A stretch of DNA of 64,000 nt from Watersipora subatra (lineage: Eukaryota; Bryozoa; Gymnolaemata; Cheilostomatida; Watersiporidae): assembly GCF_963576615.1 (NCBI RefSeq), contig NC_088714.1:41262072-41326071 (forward strand), read 5' to 3'. Positions 3,101 to 15,943 of the stretch are shown piece after piece. The notes under the pieces were generated by a model. The model was not told where the DNA came from. It searched no databases and saw nothing but the letters and a program-made list of their open reading frames with translations. Each line of letters opens with the position of its first letter. Position 1 is the stretch's first letter. Position numbers and translations under genes: made by a program.

Positions 3101-6100
3101 CAATATTATTAATATAGTAATAATATAAAACCAATAAACAATTTTGTTTACATTTAAAAACGTCATAGTTTTTAAAATTTCATAAGTATAATCTCATAAT
3201 CTTAAAATCTCATAAGAATTGTTAGAAAAAAATATCATCGTCATTTCCTTTACTAACACTGCGTTGTACATCAGTTAGAATACCGAAGTACTCAAGAGTC
3301 TACTGTAAAATGTCAGTTACTTTGAAATCGGCAAAAATGAAACGATTTCAGTACTCCTACGTTAATTACAGAAACCTCCGACAATGCTATAGACTGGTGA
3401 AATGTGCACGTTATTTTTTCGTGAAATGCGCACGCATGTTTCAATTTCCGGTCTTAACTTTTATTAAACCAAGCTTTACAGGCATTTTGTGGCGATTTTC
3501 GTCCAAATTAATCTGTCTATTTGTGTATAATCCGATCAGATGGGTAAGTTTTAAGATAATGCCGACGGTTTACAAAGACTTGGTAACATATTTAAATAGG
3601 CTTAAATGTGTTTTGTATCGTTATTATACTTTAGCGACTCTACAAAACGATGGTGAAATTTGTTGATGAAATTTCTAGACAAGGGTTCGTCTTATTGTTG
3701 ATGATTAATTTTCGTAAGTTGTGTGCACATGCATTTATCATAAAAACTCTCATACTTCGCTTCTACTCGTTTGTTCGTGGGACAATAATTCTATGGCTAA
3801 ACTTTACAAACAACAATATTTTTTTGCAGCACTACTAATCCTACTACCACCACTGATAATAGAATAAAAGCACACACAGACCAGGTGTATAATCCAAAAG
3901 GCAATACTAATTCATAATATTTGTTCGAGAAGTTAACATTTCTGTTAATAACATGTTATCCCACTTAATGAAACACACATTAGCTAATACAAGAAAATAA
4001 TATGAAATTCATATACTAGTGTAAACATTCATGTTGTGTCATTCATGAATTGAAGGTTAAAGTCTAGCATAGATATTCTACTGACACAAGATATACGTAA
4101 TATAAGTGAAACAAAGACTTACAAATGATTAAGGCTTTATAAAAATTGACATATAATGATCATAAAAAGCTATAATATAATGATGCAACCAAAAACATAC
4201 CTTGTGCTCTCTGTAACAGATCAAGCTGAGCTCCGAAGATGGTCTTTTGCTAATGATGACCACAATATAATAAAACTATGTATACTGCATATAGTCAGCA
4301 TTTAAATGTTGAAGCAGAAGATTCGTGGTTCTTCTGGCAAAGTTTGTGTTATACTATCTGTTGAATCTTGAAGTGCTGCCTCTTACTATATACTTTTGGC
4401 AATCTTCTAAACAAGCAAAAATAAACGAAAACGGCGTACTAAAAAACTTTTGCAACTGGTACGCAATTGGAAGTGTGGTTCAGATTTACTTTTTCTTTTG
4501 GTACAAAAATGACTCTTTTAACCTATTTTTAATTATTGTTTTCAACCATGAATGATGAAATCAGGATTAGTACTCTCATACCTATGGTCATAGGCCATTA
4601 CACCATAGACTATACAAACATGCTGTCAGTGAGCACACAGCGCCCACACGTGTAATAATAGGTGAATCACTGGAGTGGAACAACAAAACAAGATGAGTAA
4701 GGAAGCCGTGTAGTTACACTTTCTGATAAAACCTGCAAAAAGTTAGTATAAATTCATTTTTGGTCTAGGATTGAAACCAGTGAGATCTTATCATTATATT
4801 TAGGTAGTCAACTATCTACTAGCCTAATTAAAAGAGTTCAATGCTCGGAAACAACGGTCATCACTATAGAGTTATCTTGTATTCAAACATTTTGTAAAAT
4901 AGGAAAAGGAATCCTGTACAAAAATGGTTAATGTTGCATTATGATCAAACCTAGTTTTGTAGGAACATGTAACTTAATTTATTTTTATTGCATGCCACAG
5001 TTTAACAATATGGGCAATTGTATATTTCTATTGTAATCACTGGAAAGTCGGCAAACTGAAAGATTACTTGAATTTTTATTATGCTTTTTAGGAACTTATT
5101 AGCTGAATATCCAGCATTACACGGGTAATAAAACACTGCATATATACAGTGGCAGGTAATGTGGTTACCGGTAAAATTAGCAAATTGGCTAATTTCAGTA
5201 ACTTAAGCTAGTAAGTTGAGCTTGTCTAAATTTTTACTATAATAAGAGCTGTGAAGCCAGCTTAATAATCATTACATTTTATTTTTATGCATATTTTAAT
5301 CGATGTAATAGTTATGTGCACAATGGATTCATTATATAGATATTAGAATATATCACATACAGTAGGCGCTCCTACAACGTAAATAATCTGTTCCTTGAAC
5401 GTTTACGTTATAGGTCATTTATGTTACGAAAACAGTAAAATACATGTAAATTGCCTAATCCAATCCAAGATCTTTTCAAACACACCCCTTTGGCCATGCA
5501 AATTGAAAAACTTGACTTAACTCTACTAATTTGTGGGCTGTACCGTAACTGCATTGTTATCGGTTTGTATCGACAACTTTGCTCTTTTTTCTGATCAATC
5601 TTACAGGTTTTATTTTTATACTTTTTTTTTTAATTTTTACAATAAGTTGATGGGAAGCGTCATCATGGCATTCGACATCTTTGGCGTTCATTTGCAACGA
5701 TTTGCTTATTTTTTTCTAAACAGCAAAGTGTATTCTGCAAAGTAAAACTAATAACAAATATTTTATATATCTACAATAAAACAAATCAACAAAAGATTTT
5801 TACTACAAAAAAAGCGGTACTACCTGTTCGACATCTATCGTACCCAGGGGTCAAGGTTAAAATGAAAGAAAATTTTCTACGATACTCCAACTCGTCACAT
5901 TCAAATTGGTAGACCGACGCTGTGACACCTGCACAAATTGATCGCCTTTGTATTTATGAGCAATTGCGCAGCAGCTGTACTCTATTTTGTTGACACATAT
6001 GACAATCTATCATGGCAAACTAAAATGTCGTGAAAGTTGTATACATAATAGATATAACTTTATGCGTGCATAGTTTTTCTTTCGTGAGTGCGATGAAATT

Positions 6101-9100
6101 GAGTAATATTCAAATCGAATTCAAGTTGCCTGACTTTACACTTTACATAACATTGAACTTTTCACATAGTAAGAAGCAAAAACTTCACACAAATTCTTTA
6201 CATTATCCGGAATTTACATTATAGGAGCTACTGTATATCTTCTCCGTAAATCTGTGCCTGTCTGTTCGTCTTTGGGTATGTCCAGTTATAACGACTACCG
6301 TAAGTTTTTATAATAAATAATCCGTTGCACACGGGATCTAAGCTCAGCACCTCCAGTTCTGAAGAACAACATTTATCACACATATGCTATCCGACTAGCT
6401 ATACCTTAGAATAAACTGTGCATATATTTATTACACCTGTCAATCTTTCATACTTTTACGCTTACCTATTCAGCTGGAAGAATGCGTTAAGGCATAACTG
6501 AAGAAAAAGATTTGCCAATATGTGAATAAAAATACTTAAACTATGGCAAGACTATTGCTATATAGAGATGTAGTAGGTACTGCAGCTGGTACAGTATGAA
6601 TTACATAGGAATAAACACAATACACAGAAATAAACAAGCACCTTCATTTAAAATTTAGAATGGTAAATGTACATGTTGATTAAGAGTAAATTTCCTGCGC
6701 AAAAACATTTTTATTATTAGTGCAATACCAGGCATTCGCAAGTATGTATCTTATATCTATATACATGTATATGAATATCAAAATTTGTCGTCTGTTATTA
6801 CCTGTCTATTCAGTTATCTGTTTGTCCAGATATAACTTTAAAATCTTAGAATGAAAAACTTACTTCGTGCTGAATTTGAAACCCCGAAGATTGCAACCAC
6901 AAATTTTTCACCATGCATTTAACCACCAAGCTACGCTGTTCTTACAATTCAATTGCTCTTATCATATACTGTATACCCTTTTCTCGATTGCACACGCTAA
7001 ATGGCGTATTAATTGATACATTGCATTGCATACATTGATACATACATTGCGTCCACGCATATTTTATATGCTATTTGCCAAAATACCACCCACAACGCTA
7101 GAAAGAGATATACACTGCTTACTATTACAGTTCAGAGTTATCGGTTATGATAAAAACGGATTTCCAAACAGATGTGATAAAATTTTAGTTGAAAGTTTGA
7201 AGTTTACTAAAATGGATACTAAAACATCCTTCCTATATGTGTTTAGCAAGCTTAATTCATTTAAGTTAGATTCAGCGTTTATGTTACACGCCTGTTTCAA
7301 AGGTGAAAACTTTCCCCGGTACATACTGCACGCAGTACATTGTAATGTTACATTTTTTTGAAGATCATAACCACAGAATGCACTAAAGTTATTGCAGGTA
7401 ACTATAGTTACCTGGTTACTAAGGTTAACATATTGTTTTATTGCTATTTTTTAATGATGATGATTTTGATTACTTTTACCAGGAAGCTTTTGCATTAAAT
7501 AATTACTGTAGGTTTCTATACCACTCTATATGATATTTTGCCTTATGATGCCAACACTAAAACAAACTAAAATCATATAATTGTATACCAAACAATTTTT
7601 CCTTTTAATCGTAGCAAAACAGACATTATTTAGCCATTACTTGCTAATGATTTTACATTTACATTTGAACACCTTTTAAAGTCTTATTTTTCCTTCTAAT
7701 TTATTTCAACAAAAAATTATTTTATGATGTGAAATTTAGAAGTCACAGTTGTTTGAAAAGGTCTCAAAACCTTTACAGCTGTTTTATTTTCTCCCTCAAC
7801 TCATTGGAATCGCGCAAAAAACACTTTCTCGTGATTTGAAGTTCAAAAGTTAGAATGGTAAATGTTGTATACGTTAAATAAAAATAAATTTTTTTGTCCA
7901 AAGACTTTTTTATTACCGGACAACGCTGGGCATTCAACTAGTATATATATATTAGAATGTTTGTTTGCAGACCCCTAGGTTCCATGTTCAAATCTAGTGC
8001 GAAGTAGATTTTTCATTTTTATTACTTTATTGCTATAACTGGACACACAGATAGCAGACCAACAAATAGACAAACACTGAGATTTATATATACATACATA
8101 ATGTAGTTTGGAGTATTGCTAAAAAAACACAAGTAAATTCCTTCTTGTTTGCCCAAAAATATTAAGCAAACCAACCTTTCAATACTTCTCTATATACACA
8201 TATTAGCTGTACCCGGCGTTGCCCGGGTGATAACCAACCTTTCAATACTTCTCTATATACACATATTAGCTGTACCCGGCGTTGCCCGGGTGATAACCAA
8301 CCTTTCAATACTTCTCTATATACACATATTAGCTGTACCCGGCGTTGCCCGGGTGATAAAATTTAAAGTCTTTGCGCAGAAAATTAATTTGTATTTAACA
8401 TTTGCCATTCTAATCTTCAAACAACATATCATGAGAAAAGTGTTTTGTATAGTTGAAATAAATTGAGAAAAAAATTAAAAAACAACTATAAAGGTTTTCA
8501 AACTTTGTTAAACAACTGTAACTTTCAAACATCATATCATGAGAAAAATGTTTTGTGCAGGTCAAATAAATTGAAAAAAAATGAAACAACTATTAAAGGG
8601 TTCAAATGTAAATATGAAATGATTAGCAAGTAATAGCTAAATTATGTCTGTTTTGTTACGATTACAATAAAAGATGATTTAGTAATGATACAATTAATAC
8701 AAACTGAGAAAACAAAATAAAAATCATGAATATGTTGAATTAATAATAGCAATTCTTGCATAGAAGTGTGTGTGTGCGTGCGTGTATGTGTGTGTGCGCA
8801 CGCGTGCGTATGTGCGTATAAAAAAGGTTACTGTTCCACCAGAAGCTATCCATCAAAACTTTGAATACGATGATACTGGTACCTTTCGATACTGGTACAA
8901 ATGTAAAAATGAGATATTGTACTGTCTTTGTCTGATCGAACGGGAGAGAATGTCGAAGCTCTTCCTACGGATATAATACATTCGTTTGCGACAGTGTGAA
9001 AATAATTGGCCTTGACTGCAATATAGCTGTTGAACTGTACAAAAAACTGAAAACGGAAGTTCAAGAAAACATGAAAAAGCATCATGATTCATAAAGTTAA

Positions 9101-12100
9101 TAAAACTCATAGAGTTTCAAATAATACATCATTTAGTGTGTGCATACTCTATACGGTATATGATGTCATTGATCAATATGCCTTGTATAGCTCAGCGGTA
9201 GACTGCGTGGATTTAAAACTTGTAGTTGCATTTTTTGTGAGTTCAAATCCATGAGAATGCGTAATTTTAAATTCCAAGATTTTAATAGCTGTAGTTGGAC
9301 ATAAACACAAACTTTGAGAGATATATAGATGGAAGATATGAGGTAATGCACATTCATCATTTGAAATGTGCAGCCATTTTACAGCTCATCACACAAAAAG
9401 CAGACCAAGGGATGCGCACCTATCGATTGTTTTGACATCAATTCAAGAGTAATGAGGTTACTGGTGTTAATTGTTAGAACAATGTTTATGACTCATTTTC
9501 ATCAGAGAAGTCAAAATCATCTCCGTCAGAGAGATAAACTTCAGTTGATCTCTCTGACATAAATGAGCCATCAACTTCAGTTGAACTCTCAAACCAGCTT
9601 ATTTTTTTCTACGTTGGAATTAATGACCATTCTAATTATTTACCAGAAATTTCGAGCAGTGGCTCAGGTGCTGTCAGAAGTAGTCCGAGATCTATCTGAC
9701 TCATTAGTCCTCCCCCTTGATGTTCAAAGCTTCTCTAGATATCTAAAGGAAGAAAGTGACAAAATCTTTGAAGTACATGAGGCACTGATGGTGGCCAATA
9801 ATCTTACTCATGATATTGGTGAGTGACAGGGATAGCGGGTAGCTGCTATTGGTGAGTGACAGGGATAGCAGGTAGCTGCTATTGGTGAGTGACAGGGATA
9901 GCAGGTAGCTGCTATTGAAGCTTAACTTAAGAGAAGTAACACATCGGAGCTTATGCTTGTTGACACAAATACAGTTTTGTAGGGATGGGAAGGTTAATTA
10001 AATGATCAAATTAAATTTTAACCAATTTAACTTTTAGAATTCTGTAAAATTACCTGAATTTCAGAACTCGAGTAGCTCTTAAAATAATCCTCATTGCAGA
10101 GTACTTCCGGCACGCAGTGAGTGTATTTCAAAAAGACGCGGAAGAGTTGACAGAGCAGATCAGACAGCTAGATACAAGCCGGTAAGTGGGAGTAAGCCAC
10201 TCCTAACATTAAAACAAAGAGAATATAACTGCTAAGAGATAGTTTTTTTTCAAAAACATAAGCCAACCTGGCGATATTCATCATTGCCTGCTTGTCTTTT
10301 GTGTAGAGAGCTAGAAATATGGATTTTTATGCTATTAAATGCAAATAAGTAGCTGAGTTGAATTCCTGGAATAAACTAGATCAAAGCTTTGTGGTCCGGT
10401 AACCTGGTTTAGTAGCCTGTACTCCATCTCATACTCATTCTTTCTGTTTTGCTGCATCTAATGATCACCACACTAATTTTAGGCATCTCATCTATCAGCA
10501 TTCTTCTGCCACTGTCTCATCTCAGCGCCTCAGTACACAGCGCCTAATCTCTTGGCGTCTCACCATACAGTGTCTCACGTTTCAAAATTCTCCTCAGCAT
10601 CATAACTTCTTTCTTCCAATCACCAATGTGAAGATGCAGTGTGAAAAAGTCAGTTTCTCAGAAGAATTTTTGTAAGCAGCAGTTCTGCCCTCAATCTGGG
10701 TTCAAGGGTCGTTAAGCACATTTCAGAGGTCATATTTTGACAGCCCCTTGTCAATTTTAACAATCAGCATAAAGAGAACTGACAGAATGGCAAAGTATTA
10801 TTATTGTTGCATTTACAAAACTAAACTGCATATTAGTGTTTTATTAGGATGCGAGACAACAAATTTCCTCTATGTTGTTGAAATATCCTTGATGAAGCAC
10901 TCCATTGGTTAGAGTTCTAAGGCAGTTTGCGCGCATACATTTTATACAAGCCCTTCCTAGTGCCATGCTATCAATAGAAGTCACAGAGGGTAGCTGTAAC
11001 ACCTTCTTCCCTCTTTGCAGCCCATATCTAGTTAGAGAAGTCAATGACAAATTGATGAATTTACAAAGAAGCTTTCTGGATCCACAAGGCCTTCCAGGAA
11101 GACCATTGTACAAGTAAGCTTACAGTAGAGTTGTCTAACCTTACCAACAGCAGTTGTGTCTCATTTAATGCAGAAAGAAAAATCTATATTTTAGCTTTCT
11201 GTTATCAGTCAACATCAACACTGTTTTGCTTGACTGTACGAAACACTGAAGTAACATTGAGAGAACATTAGTGGGCACTGTGCCAGAGTTTGATGTCATA
11301 AGTTTTAGTAAATTTGCCTTGGCAAATTGTATGAACGGATTTAGCCGGTTGCTAGAGGGTACAATATTGTACTATAGTAATGCTGCTTTTTCATCCATTA
11401 GTCACAATGTGCCAGCCTTAACATACTGACAATTCAATGGCTTGTCAAGTCGTGTTTGGGACAAACTGATTTGTGAAGCAACCACTTGACCAGGTGCCAT
11501 TCTATAAGCTTATTGTGCATGTAATTACTTCGACACCTTTTGACCACAATTTCCAAAATGGCTTCCTACCTTCTACTGGTGAAGTTGATGTTGTTATCTT
11601 TATTTGCGCTAACATACTTGGGAGCGCATGCTGCAGGGCATTTACTCATCATGCTTTGTTATTCATTTTATTAAAATGAAATAGTGCACATACAGTAGAC
11701 ACTCCTACAACGTAAAGGAATTTTATGTTATATAAACATTACAATACTTGTAATTCTAAAATCTTCCCAAACTCACTCCTTTTGCCTTTCCAAAAAAAAC
11801 TAGCCAACGTCTTTAATTAACAAACATCTTGATACAAACCATTAATACTACAGTTACTGTACGGTCTTAAATTAAGAAAGACTATACAGTAACTGTAGTA
11901 TTAAAGGTTTGTATCGACAAGTGTTTTAATTTTTCTTATCAATTTCACTAGGTTCATGGTTCATGATTATGGTAATTTTACAATAAGTCAAGGAGAACGC
12001 ACACCTTCAATGTCAATTTACATTGTTTTTTTTATTTTTTCTAGACAATGCCTAATATGTAAAAAAGAATATTCTAAAATATTTTGTCTAAAATAATTAA

Positions 12101-15100
12101 AAATATAGTTTTACTATGTGTATTAGGAGCGGTGTCTGTCTGATCAGCGGTCTATACATCACCAGGGCTCGAGGTTAGGATGAAAAATCACTTTTGGCAA
12201 GATGAAAACTTGTGACATTTAGCTGGGTATATCAACCCTCCAACGCCTGCACCGATCGATCGCCTGGAAATATTTTAGAGTTATTGCGTGGCTACATATT
12301 TTCTGTGCTTTGTTGACACACCTGACGATCTCTAATGGCGAACTAGATTGAGAAAGTATATAAGGATGTATATATATATATATATAAGGTATATATATAA
12401 GGTATATATATAAGGTATATATATAAGATATATATATAAGGTATATATATAAGATATATATATATAAGATATATATATAAGATATATATATAAGATATAT
12501 ATATAAGATATATATATATATAAGATATATATATAAGATATATATATGATATATATATAAGATATATATATAAGATATATATATAAGATATATATATATA
12601 AGATATATATATAAGGTATATATATAAGATATATATATAAGATATATATAAGATATATATAAGATATGTATATATAAGATATATATATAAGATATATATA
12701 TAAGATATATATATAAGATATATATATAAGATATATATATAAGATATATATATAAGATATATATATAAGATATATATATAAGATATATATATAAGATATA
12801 TATATAAGATATATATATATATATACAGTGAAACATGGATAACTCGCCCTCGGATATAGCGAACACATGGTTAACTCGACTGGATTTGCTTGGTCCGTTC
12901 CCACGCAATGATAAATGGCTCTATATAACTCGAATTCAACACTGTTATAACGAACTGTTTTTTGCCCAACGGCTACCGAAACGGTTGTTATCGCTTTAGA
13001 AAATCACTTTATTCCAAGCCATAGAGGTAAACCTCAACTTTTCGTAATTCATAAGCGTCGTTATTACCTCCATCGGCAAAATATTTTTGTCAACGACTGT
13101 TCTAAAGGTTTGGTGAAATTTGATTTATACTTCTATACGATGAATAGCACGGGTTAGCCGGGTCACGGGCGCAAGGATTTTCGCCACGCACATACAAAAC
13201 AAAAACAGCATGTTGTTTTTGTTTTGTATTTGCGTGGCGAAAATCCTTGAGTGCGTGACCCGGCTAGCCCGTGATGAATAGTTTTCCGACGTTGATTCCG
13301 TGTTGAATTACCGTCGGAACGTTGAATGTTTAAAACGTCTTAAAAAATGTTGTAATCAAACGTATACGTTGTCTTAGCTAAAAAAAACTATTCATCGTTT
13401 GACCTAAACACAAAATACGTGTGTACATTCAATAAGTATCCATTCAAAAAGCGTGAGTGATATACAATGTACCGTAAAACCTCGTAAAACTTTTAATTGA
13501 ACTGCCTCGGAGTGTTGCTCTTAACGAATCCCAGGTAAAGTAAGGTAATCTTTGCAAAAACTTCAAGAAAGATCGGCAAAATTGATCGTGGGTAAAACGC
13601 TCAAAATAAAAAGATGTCTATTCTTTGAGCATTTCAGCAACGATCAAGTTTTGCCAATGTCAATCTAAAAAACGTCCTGGCAATAACATCACCTCAAACA
13701 ACAAACCAATCTCAAGTGATAGAAAAATCTCTATACTTTTTGATAAAAACGTTTTAAACTTTACATTAGAAGCATTTAATTTGAAACAAGCCATTTGTGC
13801 TTTTGATTTATATTATAGTTTGTATATGTTCATGTATCTACTAATAAATAAGTAAATACATGGACTTGTGACAGTGCTCTGATAACTTGAACACTCTGAT
13901 AATTCGAACACTTTTGCTCGGTCCCTTGAAGTTTGAGTTATCCGAGTTTCACTGTATATATATATATATATGGTATATATATATAAGGTATATATATATA
14001 TGGTATATATATAAGGTATATATATATAAGGTATATATATATAAGGTATATATATATAAGGTATATATATATAAGGTATATATATAAGGTATATATATAT
14101 ATAAGGTATATATATAAGGTATATATATATAAGGTATATATATATAAGGTATATATATATAAGGTATATATATATAAGGTATATATATATAAGGTATATA
14201 TATAAGGTATATATATATATAAGGTATATATATATAAGGTATATATATATAAGGTATATATATAAGGTATATATATATAAGGTATATATATATAAGGTAT
14301 ATATATATAAGGTATATATATAAGGTATATATATATAAGGTATATATATAAGGTATATATATATAAGGTATATATATATATATAAGGTATATATATATAT
14401 ATAAGGTATATATATATATATAAGGTATATATATATAAGGTATATATATGTAAGGTATATATATATAAGGTATATATATATAAGGTATATATATATAAGG
14501 TATATATATATAAGGAATATATATATAAGGAATATATATATAAGGTATATATATATAAGGTATATATATATAAGGTATATATATATAAGGTGTATATATA
14601 TAAGGTATATATATATAAGGTATATATATATAAGGTATATATATATAAGGTATATATATATAAGGTATATATATATAAGGTATATATATATAAGGTATAT
14701 ATATATAAGGTATATATATATAAGGTATATATATATAAGGTATATATATATAAGGTATATATATATATAAGGTATATATATAAGGTATATATACATAAGG
14801 TATATATACATAAGGTATATATATATAAGGTATATATATATAAGGTATATATACATAAGGTATATATACATAAGGTATATATACATAAGGTATATATATA
14901 TAAGGTATATATATATAAGGTATATATATATAAGGTATATATATATAAGGTATATATATATAAGGTATATATATATAAGGTATATATATATAAGGTATAT
15001 ATATAAGGTATATATATAAGGTATATATATAAGGTATATATATAAGGTATATATATAAGGTATATATACATAAGGTATATATACATAAGGTATATATACA

Positions 15101-15943
15101 TAAGGTATATATACATAAGGTATATATACATAAGGTATATATACATAAGGTATATATATATATAAGGTATATATATATATAAGGTATATATATATATAAG
15201 GTATATATACATATATAAGGTATATATACATATATAAGGTATATATACATATATAAGGTATATATACATATATAAGGTATATATACATATATAAGGTATA
15301 TATACATATATAAGGTATATATACATATATAAGGTATATATACATAAGGTATATATACATAAGGTATATATACATAAGGTATATATACATAAGGTATATA
15401 TACATATATAAGGTATATATACATAAGGTATATATACATAAGGTATATATATATATATACCTTATATATATAACGAAGAGCCCTATACATATGCTGTTTT
15501 CTCTCTCAAGGGCGGTATTTTTAGGGTTAACTATGAAATTCTTGTTATTCACATCAAATTTAAGAATTTGCAGACTTGACACGTTACATTATAAGGAATT
15601 CTATACGTCGAACAAATTAAAAGCTTTACCAAATTTTTGTTGTTATATAGAATTTACCTTATAGGTTTACGTTATAAGAGTGTCTACTGTTATCAAGTTA
15701 AGACAAAGTTATGCTAGACTTAATATCTTTGTTTTATGCAGGAACCTCCTATTGGCTCCAAGCAAATTTGACGCATATTCTGGCGCTGTCTTCCCAGCAA
15801 TAACCGACTCACTGCATCGCATTGAAGCAAATACTGATCCTAAGAAATGGGAACATGTGAGAAAGAACATGTCTATTGTGACCTATATCCTTCAAACCGC
15901 TGCCTCAACCCTCAGAAAGGCAACTGAGTTCAGCAAGGTGTAA
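87..15943 (+). CDS. NAALADase / glutamate carboxypeptidase II-like M28 peptidase, C-terminal 242 residues (six exons)
   Basis: Exons 87-177, 1959-2048, 9647-9818, 10100-10181, 11021-11113 and 15742-15943 join in phase with AG/GT borders. Seen: GSGSDYSPF and PRYTWD at the end of the peptidase domain, then YPLYHTVYET, whose His matches the zinc ligand His553 of human GCPII. The transferrin-receptor-like dimerisation domain follows, with VNDKLMNLQRSFLDPQGLPG and LLAPSKFDAYSGAVFP. Known: the family are type II membrane or secreted zinc exopeptidases that trim acidic C-terminal residues from peptides. The other zinc ligands and the N-terminal anchor lie left of the window. The Lys of the GCPII glutamate pocket (Lys699) is replaced by Ala while the next Tyr is kept, and one arginine-patch Arg is Glu, so GCPII specificity should not be assumed. 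MDPGF, LSDSLVLPL and the C-terminal region look nearer to NAALADL1; this is an impression from remembered family sequences. The introns are swollen by arrays and transposons. Confidence 0.9.
410..930. repeat. 11-bp tandem array (TGTACATATAT and variants)
   Basis: About 47 copies of an 11-bp unit. The flanks have TGTACATATAT, and the middle (about 660-885) has TGCACATATAT with a few TGCACCTATAT units. The variants are clustered, as expected if units spread locally. It lies in intron A of the peptidase gene. All frames stay open on both strands over long runs, which is a by-product of the repeat. Confidence 0.95.
1190..1265 (+). repeat. tRNA-derived SINE head (degenerate)
   Basis: GGGGCAAGTGGTAGAATG resembles an A box, and CTGGGTTCAAGAAC, about 35 bp later, resembles a B box. 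The spacing fits a tRNA-derived promoter. No intact cloverleaf is visible, so a SINE or tRNA relic is more likely than a working tRNA. Confidence 0.4.
1266..1958. other. Intron A remainder, no feature recognised
   Basis: Somewhat more GC-rich than the surrounding introns (about 1440-1740). No array, inverted repeat or coding similarity was recognised up to the polypyrimidine tract before exon B. Confidence 0.5.
1959..2048 (+). CDS. NAALADase-like exon B (zinc-ligand His)
   Basis: 30 codons in phase 0-0. The acceptor is GCTGTTTTAG and the donor is CAG|GTGAGT. It encodes YPLYHTVYETFYLVDHIMD; the His is the expected final zinc ligand and the preceding Tyr is conserved in the family. Confidence 0.9.
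2097..2270. repeat. 19-bp minisatellite CCCTGGCAGCGGTGTCTAA
   Basis: About nine nearly identical copies, the last two degenerate. It is GC-rich in an AT-rich intron and begins about 50 bp after the exon B donor. Confidence 0.95.
2312..2725. mobile_element. Long-inverted-repeat MITE (family with CATCCTGGCAGTCAGATCACC)
   Basis: The left arm (about 2312-2465) is the diverged reverse complement of the right arm (about 2575-2725). The shared core reads TTTTAACCTTGATCAAG, then a TTTTAATCTT-like stretch, then GGCAGTCAGATCACCTC. The same core recurs at 13600-13770, 24355-24525 and 32400-33240, so this is an interspersed family. Ends and target duplication were not resolved. Confidence 0.7.
2726..5094. 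other. Intron B, AT-rich, no gene recognised
   Basis: Short open frames are present (for example 3310-3666), but none has recognisable domains, and GT/AG borders in phase with the peptidase are not needed here because exons B and C join directly. No tandem array was seen. Confidence 0.5.
5095..5345 (+). repeat. Interspersed repeat starting with the CCAGCATTACACGGG motif
   Basis: AGCTGAATATCCAGCATTAC followed by ACGGGTAATAAAACA matches the starts of copies at 57852 (ATCCGACGTTGCACAGG) and 8208 (TACCCGGCGTTGCCCGGG). The following GTAACTTAAGCTAGTAA stretch also recurs near 57945. Confidence 0.55.
5360..6233. mobile_element. Pogo/Tigger-like non-autonomous element, 874 bp
   Basis: The left end CAGTAGGCGCTCCTACAACG matches the reverse complement of the right end (CAGTAGCTCCTATAATG). 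It is flanked by TA on both sides (5358-5359 and 6234-6235), the target duplication of the pogo/mariner superfamily. It has no transposase. The interior is homologous to 11693-12360 and 15470-15690, which marks it as the unexpanded relative of the nested element there. Confidence 0.8.
6700..6935 (-). repeat. tRNA-derived SINE, minus orientation
   Basis: Read on the minus strand, a tRNA-like head (GTAGCTTGGTGGTTAAATGC, then GGGTTTCAAATTC) is followed by a CACGAAGTAAGTTTTTCATT body and a tail rich in GACAGATAACAGACG-like sequence. Copies with the same order are at 7945-8095, 9178-9330 and 58140-58275. Confidence 0.6.
7505..7945. repeat. Arm of the CCCGGCGTTGCCCGGG repeat family (inverted to 8360-8645)
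   Basis: This stretch ends in GACAACGCTGGGCATTCAAC. It runs as the diverged reverse complement of 8360-8645 (shared ATCATATCATGAGAAAAGTG-type and ACAACTATAAAGG-type segments). A related copy in the same orientation is at 23335-23550. With the SINE between them the arms form a large imperfect inverted repeat. Confidence 0.6.
7945..8095 (+). repeat. tRNA-derived SINE, plus orientation
   Basis: TTTGCAGACCCCTAGGTTCC and ATGTTCAAATCTAG (B-box-like) lead into GTGCGAAGTAGATTTTTCAT, then TTTATTGCTATAACTGGACA, ending in CACTGAGATTTATATATA. This is the clearest copy of the body and tail of this SINE family in the window. Confidence 0.65.
8171..8360. repeat. 63-bp unit in three tandem copies, containing the palindrome CCCGGCGTTGCCCGGG
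   Basis: Starts at 8171, 8234 and 8297; the copies are essentially identical. Each carries AGCTGTACCCGGCGTTGCCC followed by GGGTGATAA, the conserved head of the interspersed repeat whose body follows at 8360-8645. The identity implies a recent duplication. Confidence 0.95.
8767..8820. repeat. GT/GC-rich microsatellite
   Basis: Alternating purine-pyrimidine run (TGTGTGTGCGTGCGTGTATG and similar), a potential Z-DNA former. It lies in intron B of the peptidase gene. Confidence 0.85.
9178..9330 (+). repeat. tRNA-derived SINE with clear A and B boxes
   Basis: TATAGCTCAGCGGTAGACTG (A box region) and GTGAGTTCAAATCC (B box) precede a body with TTTTAATAGCTGTAGTTGGA and a tail ending GAGAGATATATA. 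The body aligns with the SINE at 7945-8095. It could also be read as a tRNA pseudogene fused to a tail. Confidence 0.6.
9647..9818 (+). CDS. NAALADase-like exon C
   Basis: The acceptor is ATTTACCAG and the exon starts in phase 0. It encodes KFRAVAQVLSEVVRDLSDSL through ANNLTHDI, the first helices of the dimerisation domain. It ends ATTG|GTGAGT in phase 1; that donor is copied twice just downstream. Confidence 0.9.
9815..9916. repeat. 33-bp tandem triplication that includes the exon C splice donor
   Basis: The unit ATTGGTGAGTGACAGGGATA plus GCAGGTAGCTGCT occurs three times and begins with the last four exon bases. Identical ATTG|GTGAGT donors therefore sit at 9819, 9852 and 9885. Splicing at either downstream copy would retain GT GAG TGA, an immediate in-frame stop. 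Confidence 0.95.
10100..10181 (+). CDS. NAALADase-like exon D
   Basis: The acceptor is TCATTGCAG, the phase is 1 to 2 and the donor is CG|GTAAGT. It encodes EYFRHAVSVFQKDAEELTEQ and IRQLDTSR, amphipathic helices of the dimer domain. Confidence 0.9.
10182..11020. other. Intron D, no array or transposon recognised
   Basis: Contains a stretch rich in TCTCATCTCAGCGCCTCA-type phrases (10420-10620) that looks mildly internally repetitive. Otherwise nothing was identified. Confidence 0.5.
11021..11113 (+). CDS. NAALADase-like exon E
   Basis: The acceptor is CTCTTTGCAG and the donor is AA|GTAAGC. It encodes PYLVREVNDKLMNLQRSFLD and PQGLPGRPLYK, the most conserved signature of the family's C-terminal domain. 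Confidence 0.93.
12367..12825. repeat. TATATAAGATA/TATATAAGGTA array, left block
   Basis: Roughly 13-bp units of (AAG[A/G]TATATATAT), with length variants of the TA run. It is interrupted at 12826 by a TA-targeting transposon and resumes at 13955. Confidence 0.95.
12826..13954. mobile_element. Inner pogo/Tigger-like element inserted in the TATATA array
   Basis: The ends are CAGTGAAACATGGATAACTC and, reverse-complemented on the right, CAGTGAAACTCGGATAACTC, flanked by TA on both sides within the array. It is about 1.1 kb with no intact transposase. The interior carries a copy of the GTCCTGGCAATAACATCACC repeat core (13600-13770) and a hAT-like hairpin insertion. Confidence 0.8.
13148..13273. 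mobile_element. 126-bp hairpin MITE, hAT-like, with 8-bp target duplication
   Basis: A near-perfect palindrome. The left arm starts CACGGGTTAGCCGGGTCACG and the right arm reverse-complements to CACGGGCTAGCCGGGTCACG. It is flanked by ATGAATAG at 13140-13147 and 13274-13281. An 8-bp duplication is the hAT signature. It is the innermost of the nested elements, so the youngest by position. Confidence 0.85.
13955..15465. repeat. TATATAAGG array, right block
   Basis: About 110 units of AAGGTATATATAT with sub-blocks: pure TA units (13955-14760), TATACATAAGG units (14790-14890 and 15060-15150) and TATACATATATAAGG units (15200-15420). AAGGAATATATAT variants occur near 14515. The block structure suggests stepwise local amplification. 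Minus-strand open frames of up to 589 codons here are repeat artefacts. Confidence 0.95.
15742..15943 (+). CDS. NAALADase-like terminal exon F
   Basis: The acceptor is GTTTTATGCAG. It encodes LLAPSKFDAYSGAVFPAITD through ILQTAASTLRKATEFSKV and stops at TAA 15941-15943. Known family members end at the same place. A candidate poly(A) signal AATAAA is at 16142-16147. Confidence 0.92.

Follow-up and report, generated by a model that had tools for sequence, protein, structure and literature searches.

The window, by which we mean the whole 64,000-nucleotide stretch analyzed here, contains what is probably a glutamate carboxypeptidase II-like gene, identified with varying confidence along its length, and a nest of repetitive elements on the forward strand. 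The initial annotation had described four physically nested layers, and this nesting is confirmed by direct observation, with an outer element holding an array in its middle, an inner element lying inside the array, and a palindromic hairpin lying inside the inner element. The features are the following:

5360..6233, forward strand: compact copy of the outer family, with TA at both flanks and no array
11693..12366, forward strand: left part of the outer element, an old MITE family, with a TA-flanked CAGTAG.. terminal inverted repeat; aligns with 5360-6233 and with 39 other scored genome places
12357..12819, forward strand: left sub-array (TRF and unit list), opening with four AAGG-type units at its far left edge and otherwise made up largely of TATATATATAAGA (13 nt), with two further AAGG units
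12826..13954, forward strand: inner element, 1129 bp, young and non-autonomous, with terminal inverted repeats CAGTGAAAC..GGATAACTC, inserted at a TA in a (TA)n run
13148..13273, forward strand: palindromic MITE (the hairpin), 126 bp, with two 63-nt arms, 90% complementary and without spacer, inside the inner element
13959..15455, forward strand: right sub-array (TRF and unit list), with some 97 units, most of them TATATATATATAAGG, identical variants being grouped in runs
15466..15689, forward strand: right part of the outer element, ending in ..GTGTCTACTG; matched by the compact copy and at 39 other scored places of the genome
15740..15943, forward strand: probable last coding exon of the glutamate carboxypeptidase II-like gene (Pfam TFR_dimer, 4.4e-11 for 15740-15940)

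The open reading frame at 15740-15940 matches the transferrin-receptor-like dimerisation domain (Pfam, E 4.4e-11), while the seven other open reading frames scanned gave no Pfam match. Upstream, 9563-9823 shows a weak match to glutamate carboxypeptidase II (best E 0.037), and the frames near 1-234 and 10896-11114 are, by eye, what we take to be further exons of the same gene. The outer element is probably located in the intron before the 15740-15943 exon, and both outer copies of the window are likely to lie in introns of one gene.

Outer element, its family and the central array

The outer element extends from 11693 to 15689, one base less than initially proposed (11693-15690), and its left 674 bp and right 225 bp are collinear, in the same orientation, with the 874-bp compact copy at 5360-6233. 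The kinship that had been suggested between these two copies is borne out by the local alignment scores against the compact copy, which were 278 for the left part and 94 for the right part, compared with best scores of 57 and 55, respectively, in 200 dinucleotide shuffles. The terminal inverted repeats match over the first 12 bases in the outer element and over the first 6 in the compact copy. The 11693-15689 copy is preceded by TA and followed by TT, so its target duplication is not intact, and the compact copy has TA at either end.

We searched a genome of 783.7 Mb in 239 contigs for further members of the family. For the left part, the main alignments at 39 other places were 71 to 77% identical (best 40 of 2756 first-look candidates, 76 match rows), and those of the compact copy were 74 to 81% identical (best 40 of 5495 first-look candidates). 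The outer family is large and old, and the best matches between its copies, at 71 to 81% identity, are about 19 to 29% apart; the outer element of the window is itself degraded.

Some peculiarities of individual members were seen along the way. The left part of the outer element contains an internal inverted repeat at 11832-11916, and many family matches start or restart near it; at locus L003, an array of 34 copies of a 20-bp unit lies in the zone matching this inverted repeat. Two compact-family copies, L013 and L074, have arrays of like period and unit on both sides, as if they had landed in pre-existing arrays. At L136 (G000:C10:58761854-58762334) the central zone of an outer copy runs, by eye, into the apparent CAGTAG end of another member, which looks like one outer element inserted in another.

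The array of the window consists, according to TRF, of 12357-12819 and 13959-15455, and sits at the join of the two halves of the outer element. A TATATAAGG array of about 3 kb had been claimed for the middle of the outer element; its location between the halves stands, but the array proper measures 463 plus 1497 bp, about 1.96 kb (close to 2.0 kb), and a length of about 3.1 kb is reached only when the inner element is counted. A position of the array outside the outer element was considered and rejected, as the element halves align with the compact copy on either side of it. Unit types differ by side, with mostly AAGA units to the left of the inner element and almost exclusively AAGG units to its right, where two ATGG units adjoin the inner element. 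That identical unit variants occur in runs is a sign of local duplication. After the right sub-array comes an inverted unit, ACCTTATATATATAAC, and this terminal unit makes a short palindrome (15440-15475) at the right edge of the array.

A genome check of the outer copies for an internal TATATAAGG array, as suggested by the initial annotation, places the array inside the element, but in only 1 of the 65 sampled copies with an at least partly readable centre, which is the window copy. These 65 comprised 32 copies picked because both halves were close together (a choice that would miss long arrays), 31 others, L072 and the window copy. A TATATAAGG array was likewise absent from 39 further copies that had been selected on their left part only (L002-L008, L065 and L119-L149), within the 0.4 to 1.5 kb fetched beyond that part. 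The usual centre can be observed directly in nearly all of the other sampled copies, where a short GTATATATAATAGAGAG-like sequence occupies it, such as ..GTACTAGTATATATAATAGAGAG.. or one of its variants. L072 was fetched without its left half, as its array reaches the edge of the locus; ahead of its right part it carries 29 copies of a 49-bp unit, which aligns with the central zone of other copies at a score of 68, versus at most 41 in 60 shuffles.

The repeat itself was also sought on its own. A strict pattern of three 13-nt AAGG units has five occurrences in 784 Mb, all of them inside the window array. A looser pattern gave 503 matches, and among the approximately 100 places listed there were related AAGG arrays at other loci. 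At the four loci fetched from these listed places (L150-L153, not including the 18-nt arrays on C1 near 21.05 and 21.21 Mb) the outer element was not detected, which indicates that AAGG arrays arise without the outer family too. As the TATATAAGG unit is so simple that homology to the central seed of the element cannot be shown statistically, we infer growth in situ from the context. Most likely, the array arose as an expansion of the outer element's own middle, and the collinear halves, the short centre in sister copies and the expansion in L072 favor the earlier proposal that the array replaces or expands this part of the element.

Inner element and its hairpin passenger

A TA-targeting element had been placed at 12826-13954 inside the array, and it is indeed present there and flanked by TA. 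Positions 1 to 9 and 12 to 20 of its terminal inverted repeats match. The nine other copies found via the hairpin are 95.8 to 98.8% identical, and L065 is 97.3% identical. The window copy departs from the column majority of the 11 copies at only 9 of 1129 positions (0.8%) and is therefore young. The TA target duplication was found in 27 of the 28 inner-family sites with both flanks readable, the exception being L040. Both the outer and the inner element resemble Tc1/mariner-pogo (Tigger-type) MITEs in their inverted ends starting with CAG, and the inner element, as the outer one may do, also shares the TA target; it is on these ends and this target that the putative class label of both is based. 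A search of the genome for the DDE_1 (pogo-type) transposase gave 718 first-look candidates and 150 scored matches.

The landing sites of the inner family were compared with other TA sites. From 30 sites, 2 were dropped for a missing flank, one of them with a long TA run on the readable side. The 28 remaining sites show the context A-TA-T in 24 cases, and 9 of them have a TA run of at least 10 nt, compared with 1.3% of all TA sites, 6.3% of 4-mer-matched controls and 11.0% of 6-mer-matched controls, all of which were drawn from the window and the loci fetched for the outer family and not from a random genome sample. The enrichment over the 6-mer-matched controls has a one-sided p of 0.0024, and of 0.007 without the window copy (8 of 27). 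A preference for tandem arrays was not found, as 9 of the 28 sites are in arrays, versus 18.7% of all TA sites (p 0.09), 30.3% of 4-mer-matched and 38.4% of 6-mer-matched controls. The nine sites include the window copy for arrays as well as for TA runs, and leaving it out (8 of 27 in arrays) does not alter this result. The inner family thus has A-TA-T as its target, with an enrichment for TA runs of at least 10 nt but not for arrays as such. The idea that TA-rich arrays act as landing pads survives in part, for long TA runs (9/28 versus 11.0%), but does not extend to arrays as such (9/28 versus 30 to 38%). The TA runs at the insertion sites may also have lengthened after insertion.

The 126-bp palindrome with a clean 8-bp duplication described in the initial annotation was recovered at 13148-13273, with ATGAATAG on both sides (13140-13147 and 13274-13281). 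An 8-bp duplication and inverted repeats reaching to the centre are typical of hAT-type palindromic MITEs, and these two traits are the basis of the putative hAT label; the hairpin differs from such MITEs in that it was met here solely as a passenger fixed within the inner element. Elsewhere in the search, 40 places of the genome are 99 to 100% identical to the hairpin over 126 bp (best 40 of 902 first-look candidates), of which 30 were covered and the last 10 left out. At all ten fully aligned loci (nine besides the window), the hairpin is embedded in a complete 1129-bp inner element, at an identical position and with flanks differing by single changes. At 20 further loci, for which short stretches were fetched around the predicted ends, we found both inner-element ends where predicted in 18 and one end in 2.

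This shared position in 30 of 30 examined copies is a direct observation and argues that the hairpin came with the inner element, with no separate landing in the window copy, which contradicts the claim that such a landing was the last step at the locus. The hairpin is a fixed passenger of this inner subfamily and would have entered an inner-element progenitor once, multiplying with it afterwards. The case illustrates a pitfall, as even an insertion nested within another element and bordered by a clean target duplication may predate other events at its locus.

A second TATATATAAGG-type array was seen at L151 (G000:C6:2412400-2414500), where the outer element was not detected. It holds an inner-family copy in pieces 95.7 to 96.7% identical. 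This copy has neither the hairpin nor the sequence around the hairpin, so no empty hairpin site was seen.

Order of events

We consider it probable that the locus was built from an old outer MITE, an array formed in situ and a young inner MITE that already carried the hairpin. An old TA-targeting outer MITE would have inserted at the start, probably in an intron. We infer that its short central TA-rich stretch was the seed of a TATATA(TA)nAAGG minisatellite of about 2 kb, which then grew in place through slippage or unequal exchange. The young inner MITE, with its preference for A-TA-T and long TA runs, would have inserted much later in a TA run of the array, with the hairpin already aboard after a single progenitor insertion and multiplied with the inner element. 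The outer element is placed before the inner one because the observed divergence of the two families is unequal (about 19 to 29% versus 0.8%). The time order given in the initial annotation fits copy divergence for the outer element, the array and the inner element, but its fourth step, the landing of the hairpin, is not supported. The least certain step, and a doubtful one, is that the array preceded the inner element, because the latter sits at the boundary between AAGA and AAGG units, so the array may in part have grown after the landing, on one side or on both.

This boundary would agree with an alternative in which the short TA stretch of the outer element received the inner element before any array existed, and arrays then grew separately on each side, AAGA on the left and AAGG on the right. 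Such a history is nevertheless unlikely, since the AAGG unit at the far left is the same as the unit on the right, pointing to a common ancestral unit, since the comparable insertion at L151 has an inner-family copy in an AAGG array whose unit type does not change from one side of the copy to the other, and since the inner copy of the window is young. The first two of these points are also what favors an array-first order. Quite improbable is a foreign origin of the array, as a pre-existing TA-rich minisatellite captured by, or inserted in, the outer element; similar TATATATAAGG arrays at L150 and L151, where the outer element was not detected, would agree with it, but the element halves stay aligned with the compact copy past the array edges, the window locus alone has the strict repeat pattern, and the L072 array is made of the same central zone.

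The reading with four successive landings at the locus, the hairpin arriving last, draws on the clean 8-bp ATGAATAG duplication, which shows an insertion of the hairpin into the inner element at some time. We regard it as extremely improbable for this locus, as the inner element encloses the palindrome at all 10 full loci, with flanks alike except for single changes, and at least one inner-element end lies where predicted from the hairpin at 20 of 20 further loci. With the preferred order of outer element, array and hairpin-bearing inner element, the locus offers a readable case of a minisatellite seemingly born in a transposon copy, and dozens of sister copies show the site before expansion.

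Known elements and array formation in the outer family

The locus belongs to known kinds, namely, MITE-derived repeats and microsatellite-targeting MITEs, and is mostly ordinary transposon biology. In rice, Micron is reportedly a microsatellite-targeting MITE. Both MITE-internal tandem repeats and (TA)n-targeting MITEs are described in the literature (PMC12628747, PMC4079207, PMC6947457, PMC8449440). MITE-derived tandem arrays are described for Xstir and miDNA4 of Xenopus, with Xstir repeats that may derive from internal MITE sequence (PMC12628747), and for the Tetris TIR-220 of Drosophila virilis (PMC4079207). Like these, the outer element is a non-autonomous DNA element with internal tandem repeats able to lengthen; unlike them, the outer family has its long arrays in single copies, each with its own unit, and no unit spread among the sampled copies. 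The Ac-mMITEs of pineapple, attributed to Mutator-like elements, are flanked by TA microsatellites in about 74% of cases, according to their description (PMC8449440). They share with the inner family the enrichment in (TA)n runs, but the latter has TA runs of at least 10 nt at only 9 of 28 sites and duplicates TA.

Arrays whose units match other parts of the outer element are present in several copies. None of 100 shuffles reached the score against the element for L003, L006, L122, L134 (by one point), L137, L138 and L146, and 1 of 100 did so for L057 and L123, while the array units of L119, L124 and L145 and the 14-mer of L138 were no better than shuffles. For a count, 33 of 38 outer copies were used, L002, L119, L128, L136 and L145 being dropped with the right end not found or used. 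Seven element-derived arrays were counted (L006, L122, L123, L134, L137, L138 and L146, with L123 and L134 borderline against shuffles), leaving out the 14-mer of L138 and the arrays of L119, L124 and L145, whose units have no match to the element. These 7 arrays in 33 copies compare with 2.85 expected from window density (P 0.03; with 6 arrays, P 0.07), a weak, approximately twofold excess over a high genome background, and as the excess is only about twofold, a special array-making function of the family is not established.

A more general model would make the outer family an array-seeding transposon, whose end-proximal, hairpin and central TA zones repeatedly yield private minisatellites, the TA-rich ones of which then catch MITEs that target TA runs; we offer this as a tentative and rather doubtful proposal. 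Among the looser-pattern places listed, three loci are of the TATATATAAGG type, and an inner-family copy is present at two of them, the window locus and L151, whose sequence contexts differ. The expected numbers of inner copies in the TATATATAAGG-type arrays there are about 0.21 and 0.01, a post hoc comparison with a rough family size of 902 first-look candidates and about 100 of the 503 places listed. Tandem repeats make up 19.7% of the 64,000-nt window, with 20 merged arrays of at least 2.5 copies and mostly different units, and the sequence of the window seems unusually rich in minisatellites.
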